Positions 2 through 16,010 of a stretch of DNA of 64,000 nucleotides are shown here, one piece after another. Position 1 is the stretch's first letter. Every line of letters starts with the position of its first letter. Position numbers and translations under genes: made by a program. Below the pieces are notes generated by a model. It was not told the DNA's origin and did no database searches. It saw only the letters and a program-made list of their open reading frames with translations. Source of the stretch: Ramlibacter monticola (GTDB taxonomy: Bacteria > Pseudomonadota > Gammaproteobacteria > Burkholderiales > Burkholderiaceae_C); contig NZ_JAEQNE010000009.1 in assembly GCF_016722785.1 (NCBI RefSeq), forward strand, positions 62,001-126,000. Reading direction: 5' to 3'.

Positions 2-1109
<1,108 letters not shown>

Positions 1110-1126
1110 GCCCGCCCCGCTCCGCG

Positions 1127-1151
1127 AAGGCGCCCTCGGGCGCCTTTTTTT
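1127..1151 (+). terminator. Intrinsic terminator of gap
   Basis: An 8-bp stem, AAGGCGCC with GGCGCCTT, encloses a four-base loop and runs into seven T residues at 1145-1151. It begins 17 nt after the gap stop codon and separates gap from the cyclase/P450 cassette. Confidence 0.92.
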
Positions 1152-1255
1152 ATTTGCATCCGCGGCCATGACACCCTCCAATGGAGGGTTTCCGGTCGGC
1201 GGCTTTTGCGTATCCTCGCAAGCCGTCGTGATCGATCGGTTGCAAGGAGCAAGCG

Positions 1256-1318
1256 ATGCGAATGGTCGTTCCAGCCCGGCGGGAGATCGCGGAGGCCGCG
1301 GTCTTCCGGAACGCGTGA
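1256..1318 (+). CDS. 20-codon leader ORF coupled to the cyclase/AAA regulator gene
   Basis: A short ORF, MRMVVPARREIAEAAVFRNA, has a better ribosome site than the downstream gene: AAGGAG at 1244-1249, 6 nt before the ATG. Its TGA stop (1316-1318) overlaps a GTG codon (1315-1317) that opens the large cyclase frame, giving a GTGA start/stop overlap. This suggests translational coupling, with the large protein translated by ribosomes that terminate on the leader. A 7-bp inverted repeat (1173-1189) lies further upstream. No homology is recognised; the argument is purely signal-based. Confidence 0.5.
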   Translation: MRMVVPARREIAEAAVFRNA

Positions 1319-4300
1319 GCACCATGGAAACGAGCTTGCAGGATCCCACCCCGGCCGCAGGCTGGATCCTGGCCCTGTCGCGCTCTCCCTCCGGCCTGAC
1401 CTGCTTCCTCACGGACGGCCTCGGTCGCTTCGAACACGCGGACTGCCCCTGGCCGCCCCCGTCCAGCCACGCGGGGCTTCCCGCTTCGGTGCTCCAGGCC
1501 GTTGCCCAGAGCAGCGCCGGGGCGCTGCGGCTGCAGCTCGACGAAGCCGTCGACGACTGGCCCTGGGAAGCGGAACTGGAAGGCGCCCGTGCGGGGCTGC
1601 AGGTGGCGCGCTACGTGCGCTCGACGGACAACGCAGCGCCCGGTGCGGCGGAGAAGGGGCTCGGGAGCCTTGGCGCGAGCAGCCGGACCGATCCGCTCTG
1701 GTGCCACGGCGCGCCGCCCGGCCCGGCCGGGCGCGTCGCGATGGCGGGTGCCCAGGGCGTCGCCGTCATGGTGGTGTCGGATGCGGTGTCCGCGGAGCAG
1801 GCCGCGGGCTTCCGCGCCGCGCTGCTGCGCCGGTGGGGCCCGGAGCCCAGGTTCTCCGCGGCCGCGGTGCTCGCCGCGCAGGACTGCGGCCTGTCCCGCG
1901 ACCAATGGCGCCTCTACGGTGACGCCTGGTTCGCGCCAGCGCAGCCCGAGGACGAGAAGCGCCCGGTCACCAGCATGAACATCGACCTGGTGGACTCGAC
2001 CCGGCTGCTGCAGGCCTGGGGCGACGAGAACTACGCCCAGGCGCACGGCGCCTTCTACCAGCTGTGCCGACGCATCGTCGTGGAGGAGCACCACGGCCGG
2101 CTGGACCAGGACCAGGGCGACGACGGGCTGATGGCCTACTTCGGCCTGGAGCACGCGCGCGAGGATTCGGCGGCCACGGCGGTGCGCGCCGGCTGGGCGC
2201 TGGCGGCGGAGGTCACCCGCATCGGGCTCGAAGTCCGCATCGGCATCGCCACCGGCCAGGTAGCCGTGCAGCGGGGGCTGGCCTTCAGCGAGTACATCCA
2301 CCTCGCCGCGCGCCTGCAGCACCTGGCGAGTCCCAACGGCATCATCGTGTCGGCGGCGACGCACGCCCTGCTCGGCCCCGGCGTGGTCTGCGAGCTCCTG
2401 CCCGGGAAGCTGGTGGTCAAGGGCTTCGCCGAACCGCAGGTGGCCTACCGCGTCGTCAGCCTGCCGTCGCCGCACGCCGCGCGCTGGCTCCCCGCCGGCC
2501 AGGCGCGCTTCGTCGGGCGCCAGCGTGAGCTGTCGGCCCTGCGTGAGGCCTGGTTCGTGGCGCGTGCCAACCGGCGCGGCCAGTACCACTGCCTGCTGGG
2601 CGAGCCCGGCATCGGCAAGACGCGCCTGCTGCACGAGTTCGAGCGCGAGCTGCGCCGCGGCGCCGAGCAGGTCACCGTCCTGCACATCGCCGGCTACGAG
2701 GAGATGCAGTCGAGTGCCTTCGCCACGCTGGCCCTGGCCGCGGAACACGCAGGGCTGCAGGAGATCGCCGCCCTGCTGCAGCCGCCGAGGGCGAGCGAGG
2801 GAGGTGCCGCGCCGGACGAACCCTTCGACCGCAACGAGCTGCTGGAGCGCCTGGCCGCCGCCTGCCTGCAGGTGGCGCGGCGCGCGCCGATCTGCGTCCT
2901 GGTCGATGACGCGCAGTGGCTGGACCCGTCCACCATCGAGTTCGTCGAGCGCCTGCGCTCCCGCGCCGCGACGACGCCGCTGCTGCTGGTCGTGAGCCTG
3001 CGCGAGGACGCGCGTGGCATGGTGCGCGGCTTCGACACCGAAGGAGCGCTGACGCTGCAGGCGCTGGACCTGCACGAGTCGCTGGACCTGATCGGCGCGC
3101 TGTCCGCCGCCGCGCCGCTGGCGCCCGGCGTCCGCAGCTTCATCGCGGAGCGGGCCGCCGGCATCCCCCTGTTCCTGGAGGAAACGGTCCGCATGGTGGC
3201 CCAGCTGGAGAGCGATTCCTCGGAGGCGGTGCATGGCATCCCCGCCACCTTGCAGGGCCTTCTCGCCGCGCGCCTCGACCGGCTCGGGCCGGCGCGCCGG
3301 ATGGCCCAGCTTGCCGCGGTGCTGGGCGCGGAGTTCCCGGTCAGCCTGTGGGAGGAGGTGCTGGCGGACGCCGACAGCTGGATCCAGAGCGCCCGCACGC
3401 CGGGCGCCCGGCAGCGGCTGATGGATGCCGGCGTGCTGGTGGGCGTCGCGGGGGATGGGGGCCGCTGCCGCTTCCGTCACGCGCTGATCCGCGATGCCGC
3501 CTACCGCTCGCTGTGGGAGCGCGACCAGAAGCACCTGCACGGCGTGGTGGCGCGCATCCTGGAGCATCACCCGCTGAACGATGGCGGCGCCCTGCGCGCC
3601 CACCACCTTTCCGCGGCGGGCGAGTTCGAGTCCGCCGTCGCCGCCTGGGCCGAGGCCGCGCGCGGCGCCGCCGCGGCGGGGGCCGACCGCGAGGCGTTGG
3701 TGTTGTCGCAGCACGCACTTGCGCTGCTGCAGAAGCTGCCGGCGACGCCCGCCCTGCAGCAGCAGGCCCTGCAGCTGCACCTGCTGCAGGCCGCCCGCTG
3801 CATCGCGCTCGATGGCTATGGCGCGGCCAGCGTCGAATCGGCCTACCTGCGCGCCGCCGCCCTGTGCAATGAAGCCGAGGCCGGCACGATGCGCATCCGC
3901 GTGGACCTCGGCCTGGAAGCGTGCTACGCGATGCGGGGCGACCTCCCCCGCGCCCGGGCGCTGGCGGAGAGCGCCGTCAACAACACGCCCTGGGAGGGCA
4001 ACCTGCGGCTGGCGCTGCAGGCGCGCTGGGCCTGGGCCAACGTGGTGTTCCACCAGGGCGACCTCGTCTCCTCGCTCGACATGGCGGAGCAGTGCCTGGC
4101 GCGCTACGAGACCACCCTGCACTATCCGAGCGCCGTGCAGGATCCGGCGATCCTGCTCCTGTGCTACAGCGCCTGGGGCCTGTTCCAGCAAGGCAGCGCG
4201 GACGAGGCGCGGCGCCGGATCCAGCGCGCGCTCGCCCTCGCCGACACGCTGGAGCATCCCTTCAGCCTCGCCATCGCGCACGGCTTCGCCGCCAGCGTCG

Positions 4301-4950
4301 CCATGTTCTGCGGCGAGCACGCGGAGGGGCTCAGGCACGCCGAGGAGGCGATCCGCCGCTGCCGTGCCAAGGCCTTCCAGGCGTGGCTGGCGCACGCGCA
4401 GGTGATGCGCGGGCGGCTGCGCGCGGCGCTCGGCGAAACCCGCGCCGGGCTGCAGGACATGGAGGAAGGCTTCCGCCTCTGGACCGAGACCGGCGCGCGG
4501 ATCACCGCGGCCACCTACCTGGCGCTGCAGGCGGAAGTCCGGCTGGATCTCGGCCAGCCCGAACTCGCGCTCGACAAGCTGACGCTGGCGCAGGAAATCG
4601 CGACCCGCCACGGCGAACGCTACTACGAAGCGGAACTCCTGCGCCTGCGCGGTTGCGCCCAGTGGCGCCTGCGCAGGAACGCGGCGCGCGCGGCGGCAGC
4701 GCAGGACCTGCTGCAGCAGGCGCTGGCGCTCGCGCGCGAGCAGGGCAACCTGGGCTTCGCCCTGCGCAGCGCGGTGGCGCTCGGGCGCACCTGGGCGGAA
4801 CGGGGGGAGGCGGCGCGCGCCGCCGCACTCGTCCGGGACGCGATGCAGGCCGTGCCGGGCCACCGCAGCACGCTCGACCTGCGCACCGCGCGGGCCCTGC
4901 ACCAGGAATGGGTCGGCAGCGGTGCCGAGCAAGAACACGAAAGGGACTGA
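1315..4950 (+). CDS. Class III nucleotidyl cyclase-like domain / AAA-STAND ATPase / TPR regulator
   Basis: This 1211-residue multidomain protein is probably a cytosolic signalling or regulatory ATPase. Residues about 1-210 are unassigned. A class III cyclase homology domain follows, with metal-binding aspartates in NIDLVDST (Asp224) and QGDDGLMAYFG (Asp269). Next comes an AAA/STAND ATPase with Walker A GEPGIGKT (residues 429-436) and Walker B VLVDDAQW (Asp531). From about residue 760 to the end it is helical, Ala/Leu-rich and TPR-like. I see no C-terminal LuxR HTH. The GTG at 1315 is chosen because of its overlap with the leader stop; ATG 1324 is an alternative, and the ATG at 1168 has no ribosome site. 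The P450 gene starts 2 nt after its stop, so it heads that operon and is the likely sensor or controller. Whether the cyclase is active and on which nucleotide cannot be read. Confidence 0.85.
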   Translation: MSTMETSLQDPTPAAGWILALSRSPSGLTCFLTDGLGRFEHADCPWPPPSSHAGLPASVLQAVAQSSAGALRLQLDEAVDDWPWEAELEGARAGLQVARYVRSTDNAAPGAAEKGLGSLGASSRTDPLWCHGAPPGPAGRVAMAGAQGVAVMVVSDAVSAEQAAGFRAALLRRWGPEPRFSAAAVLAAQDCGLSRDQWRLYGDAWFAPAQPEDEKRPVTSMNIDLVDSTRLLQAWGDENYAQAHGAFYQLCRRIVVEEHHGRLDQDQGDDGLMAYFGLEHAREDSAATAVRAGWALAAEVTRIGLEVRIGIATGQVAVQRGLAFSEYIHLAARLQHLASPNGIIVSAATHALLGPGVVCELLPGKLVVKGFAEPQVAYRVVSLPSPHAARWLPAGQARFVGRQRELSALREAWFVARANRRGQYHCLLGEPGIGKTRLLHEFERELRRGAEQVTVLHIAGYEEMQSSAFATLALAAEHAGLQEIAALLQPPRASEGGAAPDEPFDRNELLERLAAACLQVARRAPICVLVDDAQWLDPSTIEFVERLRSRAATTPLLLVVSLREDARGMVRGFDTEGALTLQALDLHESLDLIGALSAAAPLAPGVRSFIAERAAGIPLFLEETVRMVAQLESDSSEAVHGIPATLQGLLAARLDRLGPARRMAQLAAVLGAEFPVSLWEEVLADADSWIQSARTPGARQRLMDAGVLVGVAGDGGRCRFRHALIRDAAYRSLWERDQKHLHGVVARILEHHPLNDGGALRAHHLSAAGEFESAVAAWAEAARGAAAAGADREALVLSQHALALLQKLPATPALQQQALQLHLLQAARCIALDGYGAASVESAYLRAAALCNEAEAGTMRIRVDLGLEACYAMRGDLPRARALAESAVNNTPWEGNLRLALQARWAWANVVFHQGDLVSSLDMAEQCLARYETTLHYPSAVQDPAILLLCYSAWGLFQQGSADEARRRIQRALALADTLEHPFSLAIAHGFAASVAMFCGEHAEGLRHAEEAIRRCRAKAFQAWLAHAQVMRGRLRAALGETRAGLQDMEEGFRLWTETGARITAATYLALQAEVRLDLGQPELALDKLTLAQEIATRHGERYYEAELLRLRGCAQWRLRRNAARAAAAQDLLQQALALAREQGNLGFALRSAVALGRTWAERGEAARAAALVRDAMQAVPGHRSTLDLRTARALHQEWVGSGAEQEHERD

Positions 4951-4952
4951 CG

Positions 4953-6848
4953 ATGCGCCGGTTCGACCGCCCGGAAGTCAAGCTCGCCCAGCTGGACGCG
5001 CTGCGCAACGAGCAGAGAACCCGCTTGCAGTTCGACTGGTGGTGCGACGACGAGGACCGGGCCCGGTACCTGGAGGCCCTGGGCGGCAAGCTGGAGTGGA
5101 TCTACAGCCGCGCGCCGGTCGAGGACGATCCGGCGCCGCCGCGCTCGGTCCCCGCCAGGCAGGGGCTGGCGAAGGTGGCCCTGGTCTCCGACCCGCAGCA
5201 GGTCGTCGATGCGTTGTCCAATCCGCACGACTACCTCAATATCCCGTACGCGGAGCTGGGAGGGGCGAGCTTCATGCTCGCGCTCGATCCTCCCCGGGAT
5301 GGCGGCACGGACTGGCACGCGGTGCAGCGCAAGGTCGTCGAGGACCTGTTCGCCCGGTTCGCACCGGGCCAGCTCCGGCGCGCGGCGACATGGGCGGTCG
5401 AACAGGCCGCCATCCTGAGCCTGCGCTCCGAGGTGTTCGACCTGGCCGAATTCGCGGAGCAGGCCGCGCTGCGCTACTTCGGTCTGGTGTTCGGTTACGC
5501 GAGCGCCGACCACGTGCCGCTGGAGAACGCCGCCCGCCACGGCTACCGTGCGCTGCAGTACGTCATCGTGGGCCGGCACTTCGTCAGCGAGCCGGGCACG
5601 CTGCCCGCCGCACAGCAGGCGCTGGGGCAGCTGGCCGCGCGCACCGCCTCCCTCATCGACGAATACGCCACGCTGAAGCGCGTGCCCCGGCAGCCCTCCC
5701 GGCTGGGGGTGCCCAGGCCGGACGCGGATTGGCCGACGGGGGTGCAGCCCTGGTCCGAGATCGGCCTGAGCTCCCTCGGCCAGCCCGCGCTGAGGCAGCT
5801 GCCTGAACTGGCGCAGGACCTGAGCGGGCAGGACCTCTGCAACGTCGTCGGCGGGCTGCTGGTGGGCATGGTCGGCAACGTGCAGACCAGCATCTGCCAG
5901 GTCGTGCAGGACCTGATGCGCGCCCCGACCGAGCTGCAACGGCTGAAGGACTACCTCGCCGTCCACCCGCTCAGGCAGGATGCCGCGGAGGTGCCCCTGG
6001 CAGCCTGTGGGGGGGAGGCGAAGAAGCCGGCCTCGGGGCCGGCCGCGCAAGGACAGCGCGACGAGGTCGCCGAGTACCTGGGGCGGAGGCTGAGGGCCAG
6101 GCCGCCCGTGCCCTTCCTGCCCCGGCGGACCCGCGAGGGGCTGAAGGGGATCGGCGAGGTCCCGATCGAAGCCCCCACGGACTGCATCCTCGTCCTGCCG
6201 GGAAGCGGCCACCCCGACTGCCCCTGGGGAGGCAGCAAGGAGAAGTTCCGTCATTCCTGCCTGGGCCGCGACTTCGTCCAGCCCTTGCTCGAGGTGCTGA
6301 CCCGGCGCGTCGTGGCGCTGCCCGATCTCGAAGAGCTCCTGGACAGCGTCACCGGCGAGGTGCTCGATCCCGTGCGGCTCTGGGGCTTCGGCTGCCTGCG
6401 CTACGGGCTGCGCCACCGGCGCGAGAAGCTGCGCGTGCAGCAGCCCCTGATCGTCGTCATGCCCGTCAAGTCGCCGGTCGCCGTGCACGCGGAGTACCTG
6501 CGCGCGGTGATCCGTACCGGCGCGCCCCGCATCCAGTGGGCGCTGGACGACTCGAGGATGGTGCACGTGGCCTGGTTCGAGTTCATGCAGGAGGACTCGC
6601 TGCTGGCGCTGCGCACCGTGTACGACGGCGACTTCGACACCTACATCCAGCACTTCGCGCTGCGCGCGGGCGACCTGTTCGACCAGCTGTTCGCCCACAT
6701 CGAGGGCGGCCCCCCGATGCCGGTGGCGGAGCATCCGCACGAGTTCGTGGAGACGATCCGCCGCTACAACCGTGGGCCGCTGGGAGGCTACTTCTATTCC
6801 GCCTACCCGGACCAGAAGGTGCCGCGGATCACGGGCGGGAGGGGGTAG
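4953..6848 (+). CDS. Divergent cytochrome P450 with an extra C-terminal domain
   Basis: The first ~450 of 631 residues follow a P450 plan: a substrate-side block ending FMLALD with HxxxR (HAVQR), an I-helix segment near residue 309, PPVPFLPR after the K helix, and a heme-thiolate block RHSCLGRDF with Cys436. Key positions are unusual. The I helix reads GNVQTS (Asn309, Gln311) instead of the acid-alcohol pair; Arg378 stands where ExxR has Glu; the Phe seven residues before the Cys is missing. Such I helices are known in P450s that rearrange hydroperoxides rather than activate O2 (CYP74, CYP8A, fungal diol-synthase P450 domains). The last ~170 residues (with YDGDFDTYI) form a separate unassigned domain. 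AAGGGA lies 6 nt before ATG 4953. No redox partner is encoded nearby. Monooxygenase activity remains possible. Confidence 0.8.
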   Translation: MRRFDRPEVKLAQLDALRNEQRTRLQFDWWCDDEDRARYLEALGGKLEWIYSRAPVEDDPAPPRSVPARQGLAKVALVSDPQQVVDALSNPHDYLNIPYAELGGASFMLALDPPRDGGTDWHAVQRKVVEDLFARFAPGQLRRAATWAVEQAAILSLRSEVFDLAEFAEQAALRYFGLVFGYASADHVPLENAARHGYRALQYVIVGRHFVSEPGTLPAAQQALGQLAARTASLIDEYATLKRVPRQPSRLGVPRPDADWPTGVQPWSEIGLSSLGQPALRQLPELAQDLSGQDLCNVVGGLLVGMVGNVQTSICQVVQDLMRAPTELQRLKDYLAVHPLRQDAAEVPLAACGGEAKKPASGPAAQGQRDEVAEYLGRRLRARPPVPFLPRRTREGLKGIGEVPIEAPTDCILVLPGSGHPDCPWGGSKEKFRHSCLGRDFVQPLLEVLTRRVVALPDLEELLDSVTGEVLDPVRLWGFGCLRYGLRHRREKLRVQQPLIVVMPVKSPVAVHAEYLRAVIRTGAPRIQWALDDSRMVHVAWFEFMQEDSLLALRTVYDGDFDTYIQHFALRAGDLFDQLFAHIEGGPPMPVAEHPHEFVETIRRYNRGPLGGYFYSAYPDQKVPRITGGRG

Positions 6849-6853
6849 GCCCG

Positions 6854-8266
6854 ATGGAGCCGAAAGACGTCCAGGCCCTGCTGCTGCGGCCGGTGTACGA
6901 GAAGGCGGTCCTGCACCTCGTGTACCGGGTCACGCCGGGCGAAGGAGGCGCCGCGCGCGAGGACCTGAAGCGGCTGCTGCTGGCTTTGCCGGTCACGTAC
7001 GGCAACGAGACCGGCGACCAGGGCCTGCACTGCACGATCGGCTTCACCTACCGGGGGCTGGAGGCGCTCGACATGCCGGACGCCTACCTGCGCGTCTACT
7101 CCCGCCTGGCCCCCGGGTTCAAGCAGGGCGCGCCCCTGCGGGCCGGGCGCCTGGGCGATACCGGGGCCAGCGCACCCGCGAACTGGGTCCAGGGCTTCGG
7201 CCTGGACGATGCGCATGTGCTGTTGACCGTACACGGAAGCGTCGACGCCGTGGAAGAAGTGAACGATGTCCTGGCGCCCTGCCGCGGAAACAGGGCTCCG
7301 CTCCAGCTCGTCGAGACGTTCACCGGCAAGCGCCTGGGCGCGCCCTCCGGCGGCGCGGGCCAATGGGTCCATTTCCGCTTCCGCGACGGTCTCGTCAACC
7401 ACTGCATCCAGGGCATCGACCCGGCCCGGCGGCCTGCGGAGAAGAACTCCAGGATGGAGCACATTCCGCATGCCGCCGGCGAGTTCCTGCTCGGGCACCC
7501 CGACGACGACAACGGCAACCTGTTCGCCTTGGGCATGGCGCCCGCGAAGGTGCGCGAGTTCTTCCGCAGCAGCAGCTTCGGCGTGCTGCGCCCCATCCGC
7601 CAGGATGTGGCGGGCTTCCAGGAGGCGGTGACCCGATGGGCGGCCGAGGCCCGCGCGCAACTGGACGAGGAGGTCGGAGAGGACTGGATCCGGGCGAAGC
7701 TCGGTGGGCGGTGGCCGAGTGGCGAGAAGGTGCTGCCGGGCCGCCTGAAGCCCGAGCCGGACGACTTCGAATTGGACTTCGCTCGCGACAGGGAAGGCTT
7801 CGGCTGCCCCTGGTCTTCCCACGTGCGGCGCATGGACGCACGGGGCCATCCCGGCTCCGGAAGGCGGCAGCGGCCCGTGCTGCGGCGGGGCATGCCTTAC
7901 GGCACTCCCAACTGGGAGGGCGCCCAGGACCAGCAGGAACGCGGCCTCCTGGGCCTGTTCTTCTGCGCCAGCCTCGAGGACCAGTTCGAGTTGCTGGTGG
8001 GCGAATGGGCGCAGGGGGCCCCGCCCGGGGAGGCCGGCGCCGAGGGCGCGGAGATGGCGAGCGATGTCTTTGCCGGCCGCAATGGCGACGCCGAGGCCGC
8101 AGCCCTCGTGCCCGTGCCGGGCCGACCCTCATTGCAGCTCAGGGGGTTCCGGGCGTGGACCCGGACCCTCGGAACCGCCTACATGTGGTGCCCGTCGGGC
8201 CCGGCGCTCGACTGCATCCTGCGGGACGACTATCCGGACAAGGACAAGGGCGGACCGTGGCTGTGA
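6854..8266 (+). CDS. DyP-type heme peroxidase
   Basis: A 470-residue cytosolic protein (no signal peptide, no Tat motif) with the layout of the dye-decolourising peroxidase superfamily. The distal motif is FRDG (Asp178, part of the family GxxDG). It is followed by EFLLGHPDDDNGN, a block resembling the family's basic segment (LRPIRQDV), the proximal heme ligand region CPWSSHVRR (His323), LRRGMPYG, and GLLGLFFCASLEDQFE. DyPs use peroxides to oxidise substrates, and the natural substrate is usually unknown. It starts 5 nt after the P450 stop, and the patatin start overlaps its stop, so it is firmly part of the cassette. Its length exceeds simple bacterial DyPs (about 300 residues), matching the long heterogeneous subclass. 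An acid-soluble lipid or hydroperoxide substrate is my inference from context only. Confidence 0.85.
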   Translation: MEPKDVQALLLRPVYEKAVLHLVYRVTPGEGGAAREDLKRLLLALPVTYGNETGDQGLHCTIGFTYRGLEALDMPDAYLRVYSRLAPGFKQGAPLRAGRLGDTGASAPANWVQGFGLDDAHVLLTVHGSVDAVEEVNDVLAPCRGNRAPLQLVETFTGKRLGAPSGGAGQWVHFRFRDGLVNHCIQGIDPARRPAEKNSRMEHIPHAAGEFLLGHPDDDNGNLFALGMAPAKVREFFRSSSFGVLRPIRQDVAGFQEAVTRWAAEARAQLDEEVGEDWIRAKLGGRWPSGEKVLPGRLKPEPDDFELDFARDREGFGCPWSSHVRRMDARGHPGSGRRQRPVLRRGMPYGTPNWEGAQDQQERGLLGLFFCASLEDQFELLVGEWAQGAPPGEAGAEGAEMASDVFAGRNGDAEAAALVPVPGRPSLQLRGFRAWTRTLGTAYMWCPSGPALDCILRDDYPDKDKGGPWL

Positions 8267-10404
8267 GGCCAAGCAGCCCGCAACCGGGGCCACCCACGCC
8301 CGACCCCGTGCGCGAGATTCCACCCGACGACCGCTTCTGCGACCTGATCCTCAACGGCGGGGTGGCGAGCGGCGTGGTCTATCCCTGGGCGGTGGTGGAG
8401 CTCGCGCGGCGCTACCGCTTCCGCCGCATCGGTGGCAATTCGGTGGGCGCCATGGCGGCGGCGCTCGCGGCGGCCGCGGAGTACGGCCGTTGCTGCTCGA
8501 ACCCCGATGCCTTCGAGGTCCTGCGCCGCACGCCGGGCGACCTCGCCGAGGAGGACGCGCAAGGACGCACGCAGATGCTGCGGCTGTTCCAGCCACCGCC
8601 CGCGCTGCGCCGCCTGTTCGAGTGCTTCCTGATCGGCGTGCGCCACCTGAACTCCGAGAGGAACCCGCCGTCGGCCTGGTTGCTGACGCTGCGCGACATC
8701 GCCGGCGAGTACGGGCTGGGCGGCTGGTGGCTGGCCGGGGTGCTGGTGCTGCTGCTGCCGGCCCTGGCGCTCACGAGTTCCCCCTTCACCTGGGCCCTGG
8801 TGCTGCTGGTGCCCACGGTCTACCTGGTCGCCTCGGAACGGGTGGCGCACCGATGGGGCCATTCCGATCGCGGCGACCTCCTGCGCCACCTCTTCATCCT
8901 GCTGGCGGCGGCGCATGGGCTCGCTGCCGTGTTCCTGTGCGTGCATCTCTGGTTCCACGTCGGGCCTGCGTGGTCTCCCGCCGGCGTTCTTCCGCTGCTG
9001 GGCGCACTGGGCTGGGTGCTGGTGGTGGCGGTGCTGGGACTGTGCCGGCTCTGGCCGGAACTGCGGGCGTTGAAGGAGAACGGCTACGGCCTCTGCTCCG
9101 GCAAGGCGCAGCCCGAGTGGCCGGGTGCGCCCCTGCGCGAGCTCGCCATCGTCGAATGGCTGCACAAGGGCATCCAGCTGTCGGCCGGCCGCGAGCACGA
9201 CGACCCGCCCCTGACCTTCCGCGATCTCTGGTCTGCGCCGCGTGCCGGCCTGCCGACCACCGGGTGCCCGGAATCCATCAGCCTGGAGATGTTCAGCACC
9301 AACATCACGCTCGGGCGGCCGGTGCTCTGGCCGTTGCGCGACCAGAATGCGAGGCTGTTCTTCCGCCGCGAGGAATGGGAGCCCTGCCTGCCGGCCCGCT
9401 TGCTCGATGCCGTCTGCGCGGTCGCCCGGCCCTACGCCCCGGCGAGCGACAGCGATCCTCCGGCCGGCGACCTCACCCGGGGCTTCCTCGAAGTGCCGTG
9501 CGCGGACCTGCCGATCGCCATCGCCGCGCGACTGAGCCTCTCCTTTCCCTTCCTTTTCAGCTTCATCCCGGTCTATGCCATCGATTACTCGAGAAAGCCC
9601 CGCGAGCTGCGCCAGTGCCAGCTGACCGATGGCGGCCTGTGCACCAACTTCCCCATCCACCTGTTCGATTCGGCCCATCCCCGCTGGCCGACCTTCGGGC
9701 TGATGCTGAGCCGCAGGATCTCGATCAAGGAGAAGTCCGTCTGGCTGCCGAAGTTCCACATGGACGGGCTTGCGGACAACTGGCTGCGCGCCGTCCCGGG
9801 CGCGGATGGACCGCGATCCCCGCTCTTCGGGCTGCTGGGCCTGCTGACCGGCCTGGTGAGCAGCGCGCTGGAGTGGAACGACAACCTGATCGCCCGCCTG
9901 CCCCATGTGCGCAACCGCGTGCTTCGCATGGGGCTGCGCAAGGGCGAGGGACAGCTGAACATCGCCATGCCGGGGACCAGCATCCTGCGGATGGCGCACG
10001 AATACGGCACCCAGGGCGGACGCCTGCTGGTGCGGCGCTTCGTCTCCGACACGGGCGTGCCGCGGCCCGCCTGGCGGGAGCACCTCTACATCCGCGCGAT
10101 GAACGAACTGGGTGCCCTCACCGAACACCTGCGCGCCTACGCGGAGGCCGTGGAGGCGGCGGGCTTCACGGAGCCGCTCGCCAGCATCCTCGCGGATGCG
10201 AGCAAGGTCAGGCCCCTGCGGGCCAAGCCGCACCGACCGGAAGACCCCTGGGGCGGGGCGCTCGCCCCCGACCAGGTGGCCGCCCTGCAGGAGGTCGTGG
10301 AACGGCTCGCGGAGCTTTCGCAGCTGCTCGTGGCCGCCGCGCCCTCGTTCGGGCCCTACGATCCCATGCCTTCCACCCGCAGCCACCTGCGCTCGCGCAT
10401 CTGA
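8257..10404 (+). CDS. Membrane patatin-like phospholipase / acyl hydrolase
   Basis: A 715-residue protein with a split patatin catalytic core. The oxyanion loop LNGGVASGVVYP and nucleophile elbow GGNSVGAM (Ser62, GxSxG) are at the N-terminus; the dyad aspartate is Asp458 in TDGGLCTNFP. Between them lies a long insertion with about three or four hydrophobic segments (roughly residues 155-192, 210-238, 243-268), so the enzyme is probably anchored in the inner membrane with its active site cytosolic. Patatins hydrolyse phospholipid or other acyl esters and release free fatty acids. The GTG at 8257 overlaps the DyP gene by 10 nt; GTG 8263 (GTGA overlap) is an alternative. As the last gene of the cassette it could supply fatty acid to the P450 and peroxidase. 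Confidence 0.88.
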   Translation: MAVRPSSPQPGPPTPDPVREIPPDDRFCDLILNGGVASGVVYPWAVVELARRYRFRRIGGNSVGAMAAALAAAAEYGRCCSNPDAFEVLRRTPGDLAEEDAQGRTQMLRLFQPPPALRRLFECFLIGVRHLNSERNPPSAWLLTLRDIAGEYGLGGWWLAGVLVLLLPALALTSSPFTWALVLLVPTVYLVASERVAHRWGHSDRGDLLRHLFILLAAAHGLAAVFLCVHLWFHVGPAWSPAGVLPLLGALGWVLVVAVLGLCRLWPELRALKENGYGLCSGKAQPEWPGAPLRELAIVEWLHKGIQLSAGREHDDPPLTFRDLWSAPRAGLPTTGCPESISLEMFSTNITLGRPVLWPLRDQNARLFFRREEWEPCLPARLLDAVCAVARPYAPASDSDPPAGDLTRGFLEVPCADLPIAIAARLSLSFPFLFSFIPVYAIDYSRKPRELRQCQLTDGGLCTNFPIHLFDSAHPRWPTFGLMLSRRISIKEKSVWLPKFHMDGLADNWLRAVPGADGPRSPLFGLLGLLTGLVSSALEWNDNLIARLPHVRNRVLRMGLRKGEGQLNIAMPGTSILRMAHEYGTQGGRLLVRRFVSDTGVPRPAWREHLYIRAMNELGALTEHLRAYAEAVEAAGFTEPLASILADASKVRPLRAKPHRPEDPWGGALAPDQVAALQEVVERLAELSQLLVAAAPSFGPYDPMPSTRSHLRSRI

Positions 10405-10518: not shown

Positions 10519-11931
10519 TCACTCGACCAGCACCGTCCCCATCATGCCGCCGGCGGCGTGGTCCAGGATGTGGCAGTGGAACATCCACTCGCCCACGTTG
10601 TCGGCCACCAGCGCGATGTCCATGTCCTGCCGCGGCGCCATCACCACGGTGTCGCGCCACACGCGCTCCTTGACCGGCTTGTTGTTGATCGCCACCACCT
10701 GGAAGAAGTGGCCGTGCATGTGCATCGGATGCTCGAAGTCCGTGCGGTTGATCATGCGGATCACGACGTGCTCGCCCTTGCGGAAGCGGAACAGCGGCTC
10801 GTGCATCAGCGCGTGTTCGTGCTGCGCCGTGTAGTTCATGGTCCACGACAGCCCGTGCTGTTCCATGATGCTCTTCACGTCCTGCGGCTTGCCGTCCACC
10901 ATGCCGATCGCCGGCATGCCCAGCACGCCGCCTTCGAAGGCGAGGTAGTGGCGCGAGGCGCGCTGCAGGTTGGGCGTGGTGAGGCGGTTCGGCGGGATCG
11001 CCGGCGGCGCGCCCAGGACCTTGGCGCGCACCGGACTGCCGGCATACGCGATGGTGGCGATGCGCGCGCCCTTGTCGCGCCGATCCCACACTTCGAACTG
11101 GCCACTGCCCGCGCTGCCATCCAGGATGAGGTCGGTGCGCTGGCCGCCGCCGAGGATCAACTGTCCCTTCAGGGGCCGCGGCGGCACGCCCTGGCCATCG
11201 AGCGAGAGGACCCAGGGCTGGTGGCCGGTGAAATCGAGCGCCAGGATGCGCGCCGAGGACGCGTTGATCAGGCGCAGCCGCACCCGCTCGTTCGGGCGCA
11301 GCTCCAGGCGCTGCTGGGCGCCGGCGGCCTTGCCGTTGATGGCGATGACGTTGCCCAGGCGGCCGCCGCTGCCGAAGTCCGTCACCCGGCCGAAGTCCTC
11401 GACCTGCTGGTTCTCCGGACCGAGCTTGAAGTCGCTCAGCACCCAGAGCACCTCGCGGTCCACCGGCACCGGCCGGGCCTCCTCCACGATCAGCGCGCCG
11501 TAGAGGCCGCGCGGCACCTGCTCGAAGCTGGACTGGTGGGGGTGGTACCAATAGGTGCCGCTGTCCGGCAGGCGGTACTTGTAGGTGAAGTCGGTGTCGG
11601 GCGCGATCGCGACCTGCGTCACGTTCGGCACGCCGTCCATTTCATTGGGGACCCGGATGCCGTGCCAGTGGATGGTGGTGGCCTGGGGCAGCCGGTTGCG
11701 CAGCAGGAAGGTGGCTTCCTCGCCCTGCTTGAAGCGCAGCACCGGACCCGGGACCTGCAGGTTGTAGCCCCACACGCCGCTGGCCGCCCCGGTCTCGCGC
11801 ACCTGCTGCTTGAACACGCCGGCGATCAGCTCGAAGGGCGCGGTCGCGGCCAGCGCGTCGGGGGAAGGCAGCCCCGGAACGGCGGCGACCGCGGCGGCGG
11901 ATTGCAGGAATCGGCGACGGTTCAGGCTCAC
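10519..11931 (-). CDS. Periplasmic multicopper oxidase (laccase/CueO-like)
   Basis: A 470-residue three-cupredoxin-domain copper oxidase that couples one-electron oxidation of substrates to reduction of O2 to water. It opens with a Tat-type signal (NRRRFLQS followed by a hydrophobic stretch), so it is exported folded. All copper motifs are present: HWHG and YWYHPH in domain 1, HPMHMHGHFF and HCHILDH with a downstream Met (axial type 1 ligand) in domain 3. There is no Met-rich insert like that of CueO, so copper tolerance is less certain than general phenol or metal oxidation. Start is GTG 11931 with GGGAG 6 nt upstream. A promoter-like pair lies at 11981-12009. It stands alone between convergent and tandem neighbours. 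Confidence 0.93.
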   Translation of the reverse strand: MSLNRRRFLQSAAAVAAVPGLPSPDALAATAPFELIAGVFKQQVRETGAASGVWGYNLQVPGPVLRFKQGEEATFLLRNRLPQATTIHWHGIRVPNEMDGVPNVTQVAIAPDTDFTYKYRLPDSGTYWYHPHQSSFEQVPRGLYGALIVEEARPVPVDREVLWVLSDFKLGPENQQVEDFGRVTDFGSGGRLGNVIAINGKAAGAQQRLELRPNERVRLRLINASSARILALDFTGHQPWVLSLDGQGVPPRPLKGQLILGGGQRTDLILDGSAGSGQFEVWDRRDKGARIATIAYAGSPVRAKVLGAPPAIPPNRLTTPNLQRASRHYLAFEGGVLGMPAIGMVDGKPQDVKSIMEQHGLSWTMNYTAQHEHALMHEPLFRFRKGEHVVIRMINRTDFEHPMHMHGHFFQVVAINNKPVKERVWRDTVVMAPRQDMDIALVADNVGEWMFHCHILDHAAGGMMGTVLVE

Positions 11932-12072: not shown

Positions 12073-13101
12073 CTAGAGATCGGCCCGGATGTTGCGCATC
12101 ATGATGATGCCGCCGAAGGTCTTGGTGTCGTTCTTCATGCGCACACGCAGGCCCTCGCCCGTGGAAGGCGCGGCCTGCCAGCCCGCCGTCAGCAGGCGCT
12201 GGCGGGTTTCGTCCGCCTTCACCACCTCGATCACCGTGCTGGCCAGCTTGTCGCGGACGTGGGGCGGCAGCGAGGCCGGGCCGGCGAGCGCCGTCCACAG
12301 TTCCACGTCGGCGCCCATCACGCCGACTTCGCGCATGGTGGGCAGGTCCGGCGCCAGCACGCTGCGCCGCTCCGAGGTCACCGCGACCGCCTTGAGTTTG
12401 CCGGCCGCGACCTGCTGCATCGCGAGCCCCGGGGGCAGCAGCGCCGCCTGCAGGTGGCCGCCGAGCAGGGCCGTGATGATCTGCGGGTTGCCCTGGAAGG
12501 GCACGTGCATCGTGTCGAGGCCGCTGCGGCTCTTGATCAGTTCCATGCCCAGGTGGCCCGGCGTGCCGTTGCCCGGCGAGCCGTAGCTGGCCTTGTCACC
12601 CTGGCCGCGCAGCCACCCGAGCCAGTCGAGCGGGGTCTTGCCGGGCGCGGCGGCGCCGACGACCAGCACCATGGGGGTGGTGCCGATCAGGGCCACCGGC
12701 GTCAGGTCGCGGGCCGGGTCGTACTGGATCGCCGGATTGAGCAATTTGGCGATGGTCAGCTGGCTGTTGTTCATCACGCCGAAGGTGTGCAGGTCCGTGG
12801 CCTTGGCCACGAACGCGCCGGCGATGGTGCCGGAGGCGCCCGCCTTGTTCTCGACGATCACCGGCTGGCCGAGCGCCTTGGCCAGGGGCTCGGAGAGCGC
12901 GCGGGCCGAAAGGTCCTGCACCGACCCGGGCGGGAAGCCGATCACGAGCTTCACGGGTTTGGTCGGCCACGCGGCGACGGCCGGCGGCGCGGCCTCCTTG
13001 CGCACGGGGGCGGGGGTACCCTGCTGGGCGAAGGCGCTGGTGCCTGCCGCCACCAGCACGAGGGCGCGCGCCAGGCGCGCCAGACCGAACACTGCTTCCA
13101 T
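12073..13101 (-). CDS. Bug-family (TctC-like) tripartite tricarboxylate transporter receptor
   Basis: A periplasmic solute-binding protein of 342 residues with a signal peptide (hydrophobic LARALVLVAAGTSAFAQ). Family blocks are WPTKPVKLVIGFPPGS near the start of the mature protein, VENKAGASGTIAG, YGSPGNGTPGHLGMELIK and LPTMREVG. Such receptors bind carboxylates or aromatic acids in Burkholderiales, where they are strongly expanded. No TctA or TctB membrane gene is adjacent, so this is one of the many orphan receptors; the ligand is unknown. ATG 13101 is chosen over an upstream in-frame codon because GGGAG lies 8 nt upstream and the signal peptide begins here. Confidence 0.93.
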   Translation of the reverse strand: MEAVFGLARLARALVLVAAGTSAFAQQGTPAPVRKEAAPPAVAAWPTKPVKLVIGFPPGSVQDLSARALSEPLAKALGQPVIVENKAGASGTIAGAFVAKATDLHTFGVMNNSQLTIAKLLNPAIQYDPARDLTPVALIGTTPMVLVVGAAAPGKTPLDWLGWLRGQGDKASYGSPGNGTPGHLGMELIKSRSGLDTMHVPFQGNPQIITALLGGHLQAALLPPGLAMQQVAAGKLKAVAVTSERRSVLAPDLPTMREVGVMGADVELWTALAGPASLPPHVRDKLASTVIEVVKADETRQRLLTAGWQAAPSTGEGLRVRMKNDTKTFGGIIMMRNIRADL

Positions 13102-13216
13102 TTTGCTGACTCCCTCTCGCTCCTGAAGAGCGAGACAAAAGCTAACAGTCGCGATGGAAGTAACCCAATAGGTCAAGGGCCTAGCGCCGCCTCGGGTCAA
13201 CGGCTTAGGAGTGCTC

Positions 13217-14251
13217 CTAGTACCCCCCCGGACGCTCCTCGCGGCCGTCCGGATAACGTGCGAAGCGCTCCGGCTCGGCGCCGTGCACGGGCCCGCTGGC
13301 GCCGAACTTCCAGCCGCCGAACTGGGTGCGGCGGTAGTCCTGCATCGCCTGCATGATCTCCTGCTGCGTGTTCATCACGAAGGGGCCGTACTGGGCCACC
13401 GGCTCGCCGATCGGGCGGCCTTGCAGCAGCAGGAATTCGGCGCCGGTGTCGCCGGTCGTGATCGGCACTTCGGCATCGGCCTGTAGCGAGATCGCAACGG
13501 GGCCTTCCACCAGCTGGCCGGCGACCATCGCCTCGTCGCCCTTGAAGAAGTAGAGCGTGCGGCGGGTGCCGCCGTCCTCGGCGGCCGGCAGCGTCCAGGC
13601 CGCGCCCGGTTCCATGGCGATGGTCCAGATCGCCACGTTCGAACGCGGGTCGGCCGCCCACGAATCCGGCGGCGGGGCCAGCGGCGCCATGTCGCCGAAG
13701 CGGCCCGCGATCACCGCGACCTCCGTGCGGCGACCCTCGCCATCGCGCAGCACGCGGCGCGGCACCTGCTCGTTCCACAGCATGGTGAAGTGCGGCTCCG
13801 CCATCTTGCTTCGCTGGGGCAGGTTCAGCCAGACCTGGAACAGCTCCAGCGGGTTGTCCTCCCCGGTCTTGAGCAGCGGGAACATCTCCGAGTGCACGAT
13901 GCCGCGGCCGGCGGTCACCCACTGCACGTCGCCGCCGCCGAAGCGCGCGACGGCGCCCAGCGAGTCGCTGTGGTCGATCAGGCCGCGGCGCACGATGGTC
14001 ACCGCCTCGAAGCCGCGGTGCGGGTGCGCCGGGAAGCCCGGCACGGTGTCGCCGTGGTACATGCTCCAGCCGTCCTTGCGGCTGAAGTCCTGGCCGATGT
14101 CGCGACCCGCCAGCGAGCCGGCGGGCCCCATCTTCCCGTTGCCGCGCGGATAGGCGTCGTCGTGATAGGCGCAGAACAGGAAGGGATCGGCGGTTTCCCA
14201 GGGGAAGCCGAGGGGGCGGACAGCGAGGATGGGGGAGGCAGGTGTGCTCAT
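13217..14251 (-). CDS. Pirin family protein
   Basis: A 344-residue bicupin of the pirin family. The metal-site region has the pattern HPHRGFEAVTIV and later VQWVTAGRGIVHSEM, containing the His/His/His/Glu ligands typical of pirins with quercetin 2,3-dioxygenase-like chemistry. The second cupin ends with QYGPFVMNTQQEI. The cellular role is unclear in bacteria; proposals include redox sensing and modulation of central metabolism. ATG 14251 is used; an in-frame ATG at 14281 would add ten residues, and neither has a clear ribosome site. The SlyD-like gene upstream ends 47 nt before it on the same strand, so they could be co-transcribed. Confidence 0.92.
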   Translation of the reverse strand: MSTPASPILAVRPLGFPWETADPFLFCAYHDDAYPRGNGKMGPAGSLAGRDIGQDFSRKDGWSMYHGDTVPGFPAHPHRGFEAVTIVRRGLIDHSDSLGAVARFGGGDVQWVTAGRGIVHSEMFPLLKTGEDNPLELFQVWLNLPQRSKMAEPHFTMLWNEQVPRRVLRDGEGRRTEVAVIAGRFGDMAPLAPPPDSWAADPRSNVAIWTIAMEPGAAWTLPAAEDGGTRRTLYFFKGDEAMVAGQLVEGPVAISLQADAEVPITTGDTGAEFLLLQGRPIGEPVAQYGPFVMNTQQEIMQAMQDYRRTQFGGWKFGASGPVHGAEPERFARYPDGREERPGGY

Positions 14252-14298
14252 GTCTCGAGATGGGGTTGACTGCCCGGACATCAATGCAACGGCGGTTT

Positions 14299-14775
14299 TC
14301 AGTGATGGTGCCCGTGCTCTCCATGCACGTGCCCGTGCGCGATCTCTTCGGCGTTGGCGGCGCGCACGCCGGTGACCTTCAGCACGAAGCGCAGCGCCCT
14401 GCCCGCCAGCGGATGGTTGCCGTCGAGATGGACTTCCGGGCCCTTGATCTTCATGACGTGGAAGACGTGCGGCTGGCCGTCGTCGGTGCGGCCTTCGAGC
14501 TGCCCGCCCACCTTCACGCCGGGGGGGAATTCGCTCTTGGGGATCACGCGCACCAGCGATTCGTCGCGCTGGCCGAAGGCGTCCGAGGGCTGCAGGTCGA
14601 GAGTGCACTCGTATCCGGCTTCGCGACCTTCGAGCGCCGCCTCGATCCTGGGCAGCGTGTTGTCGTAGCCCCCGTGCAGGTAGACCATGGGCTCCCTGCT
14701 TTCCTCGATGAGCTTTCCGCTGGGTTCGGAGACCTTGTACTTGAGCGTGACGACCGTGTCTTTGGCGATTTTCAT
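14299..14775 (-). CDS. slyD: SlyD-like FKBP-type peptidyl-prolyl isomerase
   Basis: A 158-residue cytosolic folding catalyst/chaperone that isomerises prolyl bonds. It starts with the SlyD-type strand VVTLKYKVSEPSGKL, has an IF-domain insertion typical of SlyD (SDAFGQRDESLV, IPKSEFPPGVKVGGQ), NHPLAGRALRFVLKV and a short His-rich tail, HGHVHGEHGHHH. The tail may bind nickel as in E. coli SlyD but has no cysteines. Its ATG overlaps the stop of the MFS gene (ATGA at 14772-14775), so the two are translationally coupled. The gene symbol is by family; a second paralogue elsewhere would not be surprising. Confidence 0.9.
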   Translation of the reverse strand: MKIAKDTVVTLKYKVSEPSGKLIEESREPMVYLHGGYDNTLPRIEAALEGREAGYECTLDLQPSDAFGQRDESLVRVIPKSEFPPGVKVGGQLEGRTDDGQPHVFHVMKIKGPEVHLDGNHPLAGRALRFVLKVTGVRAANAEEIAHGHVHGEHGHHH

Positions 14776-16010
14776 GGCGCCGATTGTGACGGCTCGCCCG
14801 TTTCCGCGCTGGCGCCGCCAGGGGCGGGCAGCCAGCGGAACAGCAGCGCCCCCCCGACCAGGAAGGCGCCGATGGCGGCCATGACGGCGGCGTAGCGCTC
14901 CAAGTGCAGGGCCGCCGCGGCGGAGGCGACGCCGCCCGTGAGCCACTGCATGATCGCCACGCCGAGGAACATCGCCATGGTGAACACGGCCATCGCGCGG
15001 CCCGTCATGCGCGAGGGATACGCGGAGCGCACGTCGGCGTACTGGAGGGTGCCGAAGCCCGACAGCATGCTGATCACGAGCGCCAGCGCCACTTCGGCCG
15101 GCGCGCCGGGGCGCAGCGCAATGCCGAAGAACAGCAGCGCGGTCAGCAGGGCGCAGGCCAGGATCCAGCGCCGGCGGCGCCGCTCGCCCGGGTCGAGCCG
15201 GCCGAACAGGGGCGCCCCGATCATGCCCAGCACGGAGATGCCGATCGCCACGTTGCCGGTCTCGACCAGCGTGAAGCCGTGGCGCTCGATCAGCAGGGGC
15301 GTGAGCCAGAGCCCGCGCAGCGACATGAAGGCGGCATAGCTGAAAAGCGCCAGCCCGATGATGCCGAGCGTGTGCGGCAGCCGGAACAGTTCGCCGTAGC
15401 CGCGCAGCGCCGGCAGCACCTGCAGCGGCTGGTGGTGCGCGGGCCGGTCCTCGCGCACCAGCAGCACGATGGCGAGCCAGGCGCAGGCGGACAGGACCGC
15501 CATCGCGACGTAGCCGGCGCGCCAGGAGACGTGCTCGATCACCCAGGCGAGCGGCGTGCCCGTCATGAGGAGGCCGACCGAGCCGATGCCGAGCGCCGCG
15601 CCGTTCACGGCCGCGAAGCGCCGAACTTCGAAGTTGCGGGCGATGAACACGGTGCAGACCAGGAAGGCGGGCGCGCAGCCGACGCCGGTGAGGACCTGGC
15701 CCAGGATCAGCGCCGGGTAGCTGTGGGCGGAGGCCGTGATCAGCGCGCCGGCCACGGTGAGCGGCAGCACGCTGGCGACCGTGCGCTTGGGGCCGTAGAC
15801 GTCGATGCCCATGCCCATGAACAGCTGCAGGGAGGCGAAGGAGAAGTGAAAGGCGGCGGCGAACAACCCGAGCTGCTGCGGCGTGATGCTGAACTCGTGC
15901 TGCAGGGGCGGCGCCATGATGCCCGCGGCGGTGCGGAAGGCCTGGCTCATGGCGAAGCCGGAGATCAGCACCAGGAGCATGAGCCAGGGGGAGCGGGAGG
16001 AGGAAGTCAC
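14772..16010 (-). CDS. Major facilitator superfamily transporter
   Basis: A 412-residue inner-membrane secondary transporter with about 12 hydrophobic segments. The loop 2-3 region is GMGIDVYGPKRTVA, a degenerate MFS signature A. The central cytoplasmic loop follows LLVREDRPAHH. It resembles uncharacterised MFS carriers of the nitrate/oxalate-formate-like group, but the substrate cannot be inferred. The start is GTG 16010 with only a weak ribosome site; an internal ATG at LMLLV would remove part of the first membrane segment, which argues for the longer form. It overlaps the slyD-like gene by 4 nt. Confidence 0.85.
   Translation of the reverse strand: MTSSSRSPWLMLLVLISGFAMSQAFRTAAGIMAPPLQHEFSITPQQLGLFAAAFHFSFASLQLFMGMGIDVYGPKRTVASVLPLTVAGALITASAHSYPALILGQVLTGVGCAPAFLVCTVFIARNFEVRRFAAVNGAALGIGSVGLLMTGTPLAWVIEHVSWRAGYVAMAVLSACAWLAIVLLVREDRPAHHQPLQVLPALRGYGELFRLPHTLGIIGLALFSYAAFMSLRGLWLTPLLIERHGFTLVETGNVAIGISVLGMIGAPLFGRLDPGERRRRRWILACALLTALLFFGIALRPGAPAEVALALVISMLSGFGTLQYADVRSAYPSRMTGRAMAVFTMAMFLGVAIMQWLTGGVASAAAALHLERYAAVMAAIGAFLVGGALLFRWLPAPGGASAETGEPSQSAP

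Follow-up and report, generated by a model that had tools for sequence, protein, structure and literature searches.

What would bring a cytochrome P450, a DyP-type heme peroxidase, a lipase and a large signalling protein together in one bacterial gene cluster? The question is raised by a 64,000-nt stretch of Ramlibacter monticola DNA (assembly GCF_016722785.1, contig NZ_JAEQNE010000009.1, positions 62,001 to 126,000), hereafter the window. Four plus-strand genes stand there head to tail, with spacings of +2, +5 and −10 nt. They encode a STAND/cyclase regulator, a P450 with a C-terminal domain that we call X, a DyP and a patatin-like lipase. An earlier note on this DNA had described the tight packing, which the open reading frame (ORF) coordinates bear out, and had suggested an oxylipin-like lipid signalling or defence system. 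We made two main conclusions. First, P450-X and DyP very probably belong together as a functional pair. In addition, we tentatively read the cassette, with confidence a little short of evenly balanced, as a regulated, membrane-associated two-heme enzyme system, in which a peroxide-using P450-DyP couple would act on a lipid-derived substrate under STAND control.

Recurrence of the cassette and of the P450-DyP association

The window P450 alone was used as bait to search 299 genomes of the same GTDB family. It matched 21 of them, and the match was full-length in 15 (window included; 12 of 141 genera) and confined to the P450 C-terminus in the other six. All 14 other full-length loci had a STAND gene before the P450 and a DyP gene after it, in the same order. 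A scan of named genomes yielded 13 loci, each of which again had STAND, P450 and DyP in that order; seven had already been counted and six were new, giving 21 distinct cassette loci with the order STAND-cyclase, P450, DyP kept in every one. A patatin gene followed in 16 of the 20 judgeable loci and was absent in L013, L015, L024 and L041 (L023 ends inside DyP and could not be judged; the patatin of L035 is cut by the contig end). In L026, DyP and patatin lie in a single open frame. The cassette homologues were 27-51% identical to the window proteins, and the pairwise distance matrices of the four genes were correlated (r=0.89-0.95; 18 loci, 91-153 pairs). Therefore, the four genes travel and evolve together, and by sequence comparison the conservation of the set at such identities in 12 genera is far beyond chance. 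The earlier note had proposed looking for the families together in other genomes; they do co-occur, in conserved order, and its idea of a conserved multi-gene system is sustained by these counts. Outside the family, no full cassette was found among the matches from 250 sampled genomes of the order (4 matched) or 398 of the phylum (14 matched). The window P450 had no match in the plasmids or viral contigs searched.

The association of P450 and DyP extends beyond the cassette through X. This domain comprises the last ~130 residues of the P450 protein and has no Pfam match. Its model (pLDDT 87.9) is a separate beta-alpha-beta-beta-alpha domain, whose best Foldseek matches were ABM/ferredoxin-like dimeric alpha+beta barrels (probability 1.0; E 1.7e-3 at best, with none under 0.001). 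In Leptothrix discophora, the homologue of P450-X (L045:7794-10604) has 937 residues, ~300 more than that of the window. With 13 diverse X sequences as the query, 398 phylum genomes yielded X in 16 cases, including four genomes that had supplied query rows. A DyP was fused or adjacent to X in 16/16 genomes, and in 12/12 when only the new ones were counted. Given this linkage, X is shown, at the level of sequence, to mark this DyP group and to be its constant companion in the searched genomes. A second heme enzyme accompanied X-DyP in 14 of the 16, a P450 in eight and a catalase-like protein in six. The catalase-like label is taken from BLAST and PLSDB names, and the Pfam Catalase match was below the cut-off (L032, L090) or absent (L063).

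Five architectures were distinguished. Architecture A is the cassette itself (STAND, P450-X, DyP, usually patatin). In architecture B, X-DyP-P450 form a single chain (L027-L030) or X-DyP is followed by a P450 (L031), and in all five loci the adjoining gene encodes a winged-helix STAND regulator (recognised by Pfam in four and by BLAST in L028). Architecture C is a single P450-...-X-DyP chain of 1410-1542 residues (L086-L089, all of one genus, and L093). The fusions of L086-L089 have a cyclase-TPR gene upstream (identified by Pfam in L087 and by BLAST in the other three), and the gene before the L093 fusion has TPRs and, in Pfam, no cyclase domain. In architecture D, P450, X and DyP are separate neighbouring genes (L092, L094, L099, L100, L103, L104); L104 has a cyclase-AAA-TPR gene and a CRP-like gene nearby, and in L103 a Tle1-like phospholipase gene adjoins the three. 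Architecture E is a catalase-like, X, DyP trio found in varied Pseudomonadota (L032, L061-L063, L082, L084, L085). Plasmid pSCLO_2 has such a trio beside genes for oleate hydratase, 3-hydroxyacyl-CoA dehydrogenase and thioesterase. In addition, L090 (4682-12887) has an X gene, a catalase-like gene and a DyP-catalase fusion of 911 residues (recognised by BLAST, not by Pfam); the catalase-like gene adjoins one for an animal haem peroxidase of the cyclooxygenase family (E 2e-68). Two Methylobacteriaceae plasmids (L080, L081) combine P450, catalase-like, X and DyP genes with ferredoxin and reductase genes. STAND or cyclase genes recur beside P450-DyP units other than the cassette. It is because of the fusions and the repeated linkage that we regard P450 and DyP as functionally coupled.

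A quick tree of the P450s needs four changes of the DyP-linked label, at least two of them forced by starred branches, so the link between P450 and DyP was gained, lost or rearranged on more than one occasion. The tree has no bootstrap and contains 10/21 cassette, 21/23 linked non-cassette and 19/30 unlinked rows; fusions were left untrimmed (L129) or roughly trimmed, and L129, L128, L028, L104 and two unlinked rows form long branches.

The four cassette proteins and their relatives

The window P450 taken alone matched no Pfam family and no PDB chain. Of the 15 family members, six matched PF00067 at E<=1, and the profile of all 15 matched P450 structures (best E 1.9e-9, CYP51). The AlphaFold (AF2) model of the window protein (pLDDT 77.5) has a P450 fold (TMt ~0.7, E 2e-10), and its best fold matches were P450BioI with fatty-acyl carrier protein (acyl-ACP). 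The heme ligand Cys436, in the HxCxG motif of the C-terminal loop, is present in 21/21 cassette P450s, and His434 is invariant. The window I-helix reads G-x-V-G-N, with Gly308-Asn309 in place of the acid-alcohol pair. Of the 21 cassette P450s, 18 have Gly-Asn at this position, three have Thr-Asn and none has an acid; Asn309 occurs in all, where the alignment to CYP51 leaves a one-residue uncertainty. The absence of O2-activation residues that had been proposed for the window P450 therefore holds for the whole cassette family. The ExxR motif is lost in 11/21 cassette P450s (window included, which reads RRLR) and kept in 10/21 and in the fused relatives. As modelled and aligned, the window protein is a P450 fold with the heme Cys that lacks both ExxR and the acid-alcohol pair. 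Because the pair is replaced by Gly/Thr-Asn throughout, we propose that the P450 uses peroxide or hydroperoxide directly, and it is somewhat probable that it is peroxide-dependent rather than an O2/NAD(P)H monooxygenase.

The window DyP did not reach the cut-off of either the Pfam or the NCBIfam models for DyP, and a PF04261 search of the window genome found nothing, indicating that the protein is too divergent for this model. Its identity as a DyP-type peroxidase, asserted in the earlier note, is supported by PDB matches (E 1.4e-18 with the single sequence, 1.4e-54 with the profile) and by the distal Asp178, proximal His323 and Arg344/Arg345, which are invariant in 13/13 sequences. The nearest solved DyP by sequence is that of Deinococcus radiodurans (DrDyP; 8RE2/8RE3), which aligns with the window DyP around the proximal His and in the distal Asp and Arg regions. 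The GXXDG motif reads RFRDG in the window, and nearly all of the 13 aligned members have Gly at its first position. DrDyP was studied alone, and the word "P450" does not occur in the text of PMC10820274. According to that text, DrDyP is inactive at physiological pH and the physiological role and natural substrates of DyPs remain unclear. Given the reported inactivity, another oxidant or an activating partner is conceivable. The constant partner domain and the second heme enzyme make the role of DyP testable, namely what DyP hands to the P450.

The patatin product had likewise been recognised correctly. It passes Pfam (PF01734, E 5e-13), has a hydrophobic middle region by sequence, and its catalytic dyad, Ser62 (GxSxG) and Asp458 (DGG), is invariant in 11/11 sequences. 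A phylum search with patatin matched 5 of 249 genomes, the window genome included; around the relatives in G725, G633 and G564, the ~20 kb read showed a match to neither DyP nor P450. Patatin was therefore rejected as a specific marker of the cassette. The window genome has a second cassette-type patatin (G000:C1:963988-965781, L112), with no DyP or P450 match within ~20 kb.

In the regulator, AAA_16 scored 63 bits (cut-off 32.6) over residues ~447-611 and was found by Pfam in 18/18 aligned members, with the Walker A residues G481, G483 and K484 invariant. TPR_12 scored 25.1 (cut-off 30.1) in the window protein and reached E<=0.01 in 15/18 members; the TPR-like C-terminus follows the NTPase. 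A P-loop ATPase with a TPR region is the composition of a STAND NTPase regulator. The cyclase domain (residues ~266-419 of the 1168 ORF) scored 16.6 (cut-off 21.9) and reached E<=0.01 in 17/18. Its metal-binding Asp273 and Asp319 and its Arg382 are kept in 18/18, but the Lys is replaced by Asp (Pro in most relatives) and the Asn by His378, residues that we take to be base-selecting and catalytic (transition-state), respectively. Judged by these residues, the class III cyclase domain is degenerate. The closest described regulators are the TOMM-type kinase/cyclase STAND proteins (TIGR03903), which match residues 556-1203, the NTPase/TPR-like part, at E 1.7e-79. However, the match scored 268 bits where the cut-off is 705.75, Pfam matched no kinase domain, and the cyclase domain is altered. 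The N-terminus was CHAT-like in 6 of 12 chosen homologues at E<=1 (best 1.6e-6); a caspase-like role was rejected, as only these matched and no PDB match was below E 0.3.

We compared the P450-peroxidase pairing with known systems. Fungal linoleate diol synthases (LDS), Ppo/DOX-CYP enzymes and allene oxide synthase (AOS) fusions join a heme peroxidase-type enzyme to a P450 that is reported to be self-sufficient, and the fungal LDS and epoxy alcohol synthases (EAS) have an Asn in the P450 I-helix, like the cassette P450s (PMC13049297 and PMC8097960). An Asn near the heme is also described there for plant AOS and prostacyclin synthase (PMC13049297), and the NXXQ motif is tied to fungal hydroperoxide isomerase activity (PMC8097960). 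The likeness to eukaryotic pairs of heme peroxidase and P450, drawn in the earlier note, is thereby supported, and L090 even has X, the DyP-catalase fusion and an animal haem peroxidase gene. In contrast to the fungal DOX-CYP, the cassette partner is a DyP with no animal haem peroxidase Pfam match, X, STAND and patatin are extra, the genes are separate, and ExxR is lost in part of the family. The CYP74 clan (plant AOS and hydroperoxide lyase) and CYP8A1 have Asn at or next to the I-helix alcohol place, and the substrate recognition site 4 of prostacyclin synthase, ...ATQGN(287)MGPA, resembles the cassette G-x-V-G-N (PMC13049297). However, the cassette P450 is fused to X and linked to DyP, and no AOS or prostacyclin synthase appeared by name among the best 60 of 289 PDB matches of the family profile; we found no sign of membership there, and CYP74 was rejected. 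The bacterial CYP152 enzymes (BSbeta, SPalpha, OleT) lack the acid-alcohol pair, a loss that accompanies peroxide use (PMC5818669). Membership of CYP152 was also rejected, since these enzymes have Arg-Pro where the cassette P450s have Gly/Thr-Asn. By analogy, the P450-peroxidase pairing may be a bacterial counterpart of the fungal and animal two-enzyme pathways of fatty-acid oxidation. No description of a DyP-P450 cassette or fusion was found among the literature matches listed, a coverage mostly outside subscription journals.

Proposed peroxide use, possible lipid substrates and competing explanations

Whether loss of the I-helix acid goes with DyP linkage was assessed in two sets. In the first, motifs and linkage were compared after the pattern had been noticed. 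The acid was lost in 21/21 cassette P450s and 16/18 other DyP-linked P450s, that is, in 37 linked proteins; the two exceptions are the Methylobacteriaceae plasmid P450s (Glu-Thr), which have ferredoxin and reductase genes. Six of seven unlinked homologues kept the acid. Outside the cassette, a Fisher test of acid retention gave p=7e-5 (0/16 vs 6/7) with the two exceptions excluded and p=0.001 including them. In the blind set, taken from the class of G873, other than that of the window, motifs were read first and neighbourhoods afterwards; it comprised 28 non-training matches with loci, from a longer list, and the class also holds two training genomes. Pooled over both sets, acid was lost in 19/23 linked and 5/30 unlinked non-cassette P450s (p=2e-6, regardless of relatedness). 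Linkage in the blind set followed overall similarity, with 5/6 DyP-linked above 150 bits and 0/22 below 140 bits. A P450 was counted as linked if tblastn matched a DyP at any point of the ~20 kb (or shorter contig) around it; the queries came from this analysis, so that DyPs and ferredoxins belonging to other subfamilies may have been overlooked, and contigs L152, L162, L163 and L175 are shorter than 8 kb. Among the unlinked loci, L095 has a catalase-like gene.

The mechanism we favour would run as follows. Patatin would release an acyl chain from a membrane lipid, DyP would make or process an oxidised (hydroperoxy or radical) acyl form, kept close via X, and the P450 would rearrange or reduce the DyP product. 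The STAND protein would sense a signal via its CHAT-like and TPR-like parts and switch the system, either through the altered cyclase domain or through contact with other proteins. The end product would be a signal, a toxin or a detoxified lipid. The lipid context consists of the patatin dyad, the Tle1-like phospholipase (L103), the oleate hydratase (pSCLO_2), the animal haem peroxidase (L090) and the P450BioI-acyl-ACP fold matches. We judge a lipid-derived substrate to be about as likely as not. A signalling role of the product seems unlikely. The oxylipin reading is a good hypothesis whose sequence evidence supports the mechanism, not the substrate or the purpose.

Several observations weigh against the favoured reading. 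Neither a dioxygenase nor a lipoxygenase was recognised among the cassette genes, and membranes of this bacterial group are poor in polyunsaturated fatty acids. Asn also stands at the same place in ordinary P450s, such as the CYP7/CYP8B monooxygenases. Of the four genes, patatin is the one least regularly present (missing from 4/20 loci), and its relatives occur without DyP or P450 nearby. L083 and L091 have X-DyP with no P450 or catalase-like match nearby, and the cyclase Lys and Asn are replaced. The loss of ExxR in about half of the cassette P450s means that heme chemistry may be atypical or absent. The I-helix Asn is dispensable in some LDS/EAS (PMC13049297). The acid rule was not confirmed in the blind set, where acid was lost in 3/5 linked and 4/23 unlinked P450s (p=0.08), and L124 and L128 are DyP-linked with Asp-Thr intact. 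An independent-pairs check gave two supported contrasts (four with weak branches), a median p of 1 and no power. A strict rule that DyP-linked P450s lose the acid was therefore rejected, given L124, L128, four unlinked P450s without acid and only two contrasts; acid loss with DyP linkage is, in these sequences, a tendency only. This outcome slightly lowered our confidence in a peroxide-driven P450, and that in the whole reading by still less.

The ferredoxin genes also count against the favoured reading. The statement that no redox partner for the P450 is encoded was correct beside the window cassette, but L013 (15213-17010) and L015 (2931-4712), both patatin-less, have 2Fe-2S ferredoxin genes directly upstream of the STAND gene and, slightly further upstream, a CRP-like gene (Pfam for L013, by eye for L015). 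These genes, the plasmid loci in which a canonical Glu-Thr P450, ferredoxin and reductase stand beside catalase-like-X-DyP, and the Asp-Thr of L124 and L128 would fit an ordinary P450 monooxygenase and a peroxidase that serve a secondary-metabolite or degradation pathway with unlinked redox partners. However, the acid-alcohol pair is absent from all 21 cassettes, L013 and L015 included, and we consider this explanation improbable. Nearly the same holds for a P450-X that is non-catalytic or ligand-sensing and binds a lipid or heme ligand to gate DyP or STAND. The missing ExxR and acid-alcohol pair and the lack of a PF00067 match in the window protein would agree with it, but Cys436, His434 and Asn309 are invariant and the fused relatives keep ExxR, and it appears scarcely more probable than the monooxygenase.

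Repair of lipid hydroperoxides is the explanation that deserves more weight, although we still think it unlikely. Patatin would excise oxidised acyl chains, DyP would reduce them and the P450 would isomerise or cleave them, with STAND responding to oxidative membrane damage; the chemistry would be that of the favoured mechanism, but the outcome would be clearance, not a signal. The lipase and peroxidase catalytic residues are retained and the catalase-like/X/DyP trios resemble peroxide handling; the patchy spread (15/299 genomes) and the patatin-less loci speak against it. Anti-phage defence or abortive infection, in which STAND would sense infection and patatin and the heme enzymes would damage the membrane, is very improbable. 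STAND NTPases, CHAT-like regions and patatins are parts known from defence systems, the distribution is patchy and accessory, and the cassette is sited differently in two genomes of the genus. However, PADLOC matched the cyclase domain only, weakly (PycC models, E no better than 3e-7), neither viral contigs nor plasmids gave a match to the P450, and the flanks encode GAPDH on one side and a multicopper oxidase, a TctC receptor, pirin and an MFS transporter on the other; we know of no DyP or P450 effectors in defence. The defence part of the earlier proposal is thus unsupported, and a mobile-defence reading was rejected on the weak PADLOC matches, the lack of plasmid or viral matches and the flanking genes.

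If the P450 is peroxide-driven, as the two-heme reading supposes, it would form a new bacterial P450 group beside CYP152, CYP74 and CYP8A, and the natural DyP-P450 cascade would be useful for biocatalysis. If the substrate is a lipid, bacteria would own a peroxidase-P450 oxylipin-like pathway under a STAND switch. The broadest claim, which we hold to be doubtful, is that DyP, ABM-like X and an O2-independent P450 make up one machine, a new and widespread bacterial two-heme enzyme class. It would have been repeatedly assembled as operons or single polypeptides under STAND/cyclase control, and would form oxylipin-like products from lipase-released acyl chains, convergent with the animal and fungal cyclooxygenase/dioxygenase-P450 cascades.

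Coordinates and genomic setting

The features of the region are listed in Table 1. The earlier note had begun the regulator gene at 1256, which is an ATG of another frame (a 20-codon ORF that ends at 1318). The gene probably begins with ATG 1324 or GTG 1318, and the longest in-frame start is ATG 1168. Terminator-like sites in the region numbered three, against 3.2 expected from shuffles, and are not above chance.

Table 1. Positions of the cassette genes, selected codons and flanking features in the window
Feature	Position	Strand	Remark
GAPDH gene	102-1109		Upstream of cassette; Pfam
Terminator-like hairpin + T run, 9 pairs	1126..1147	+	Between GAPDH and cassette
STAND/cyclase regulator	1324..4950	+	Longest ORF 1168-4950
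P450 (aa 1 to ~490) + C-terminal X domain	4953..6848	+	
Codons 308-309, Gly-Asn	5874..5879	+	Where the I-helix acid-alcohol pair is expected
Codon 436, Cys	6258..6260	+	Proximal heme ligand (HxCxG)
X domain (aa ~494-620 of P450)	6432..6812	+	ABM / dimeric alpha+beta-barrel-like fold
DyP-type heme peroxidase	6854..8266	+	
Patatin-like lipase	8257..10404	+	Hydrophobic middle region
Multicopper oxidase	10519-11931	-	Between cassette and pirin
TctC-type receptor	12073-13200	-	Between cassette and pirin
Pirin + MFS transporter genes	13217-16010		Beyond TctC receptor gene

The surroundings were compared with those in other genomes of the genus. In G097, relatives of the window pirin and MFS genes come within ~90 bp after GAPDH, with no relative of the cassette, multicopper oxidase or TctC receptor at this site, and its own cassette lies ~165 kb away on the same contig. 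Therefore, the cassette, the multicopper oxidase and the TctC gene (to 13200) look like an extra block in the window genome by sequence comparison, and the position of the cassette varies between genomes of the genus. No pirin was found within ~15 kb after GAPDH in G272, and ~2.2 kb separates GAPDH and pirin in G198. Between the window pirin and MFS genes lies a third gene, without a Pfam match, which by eye is FKBP-type.

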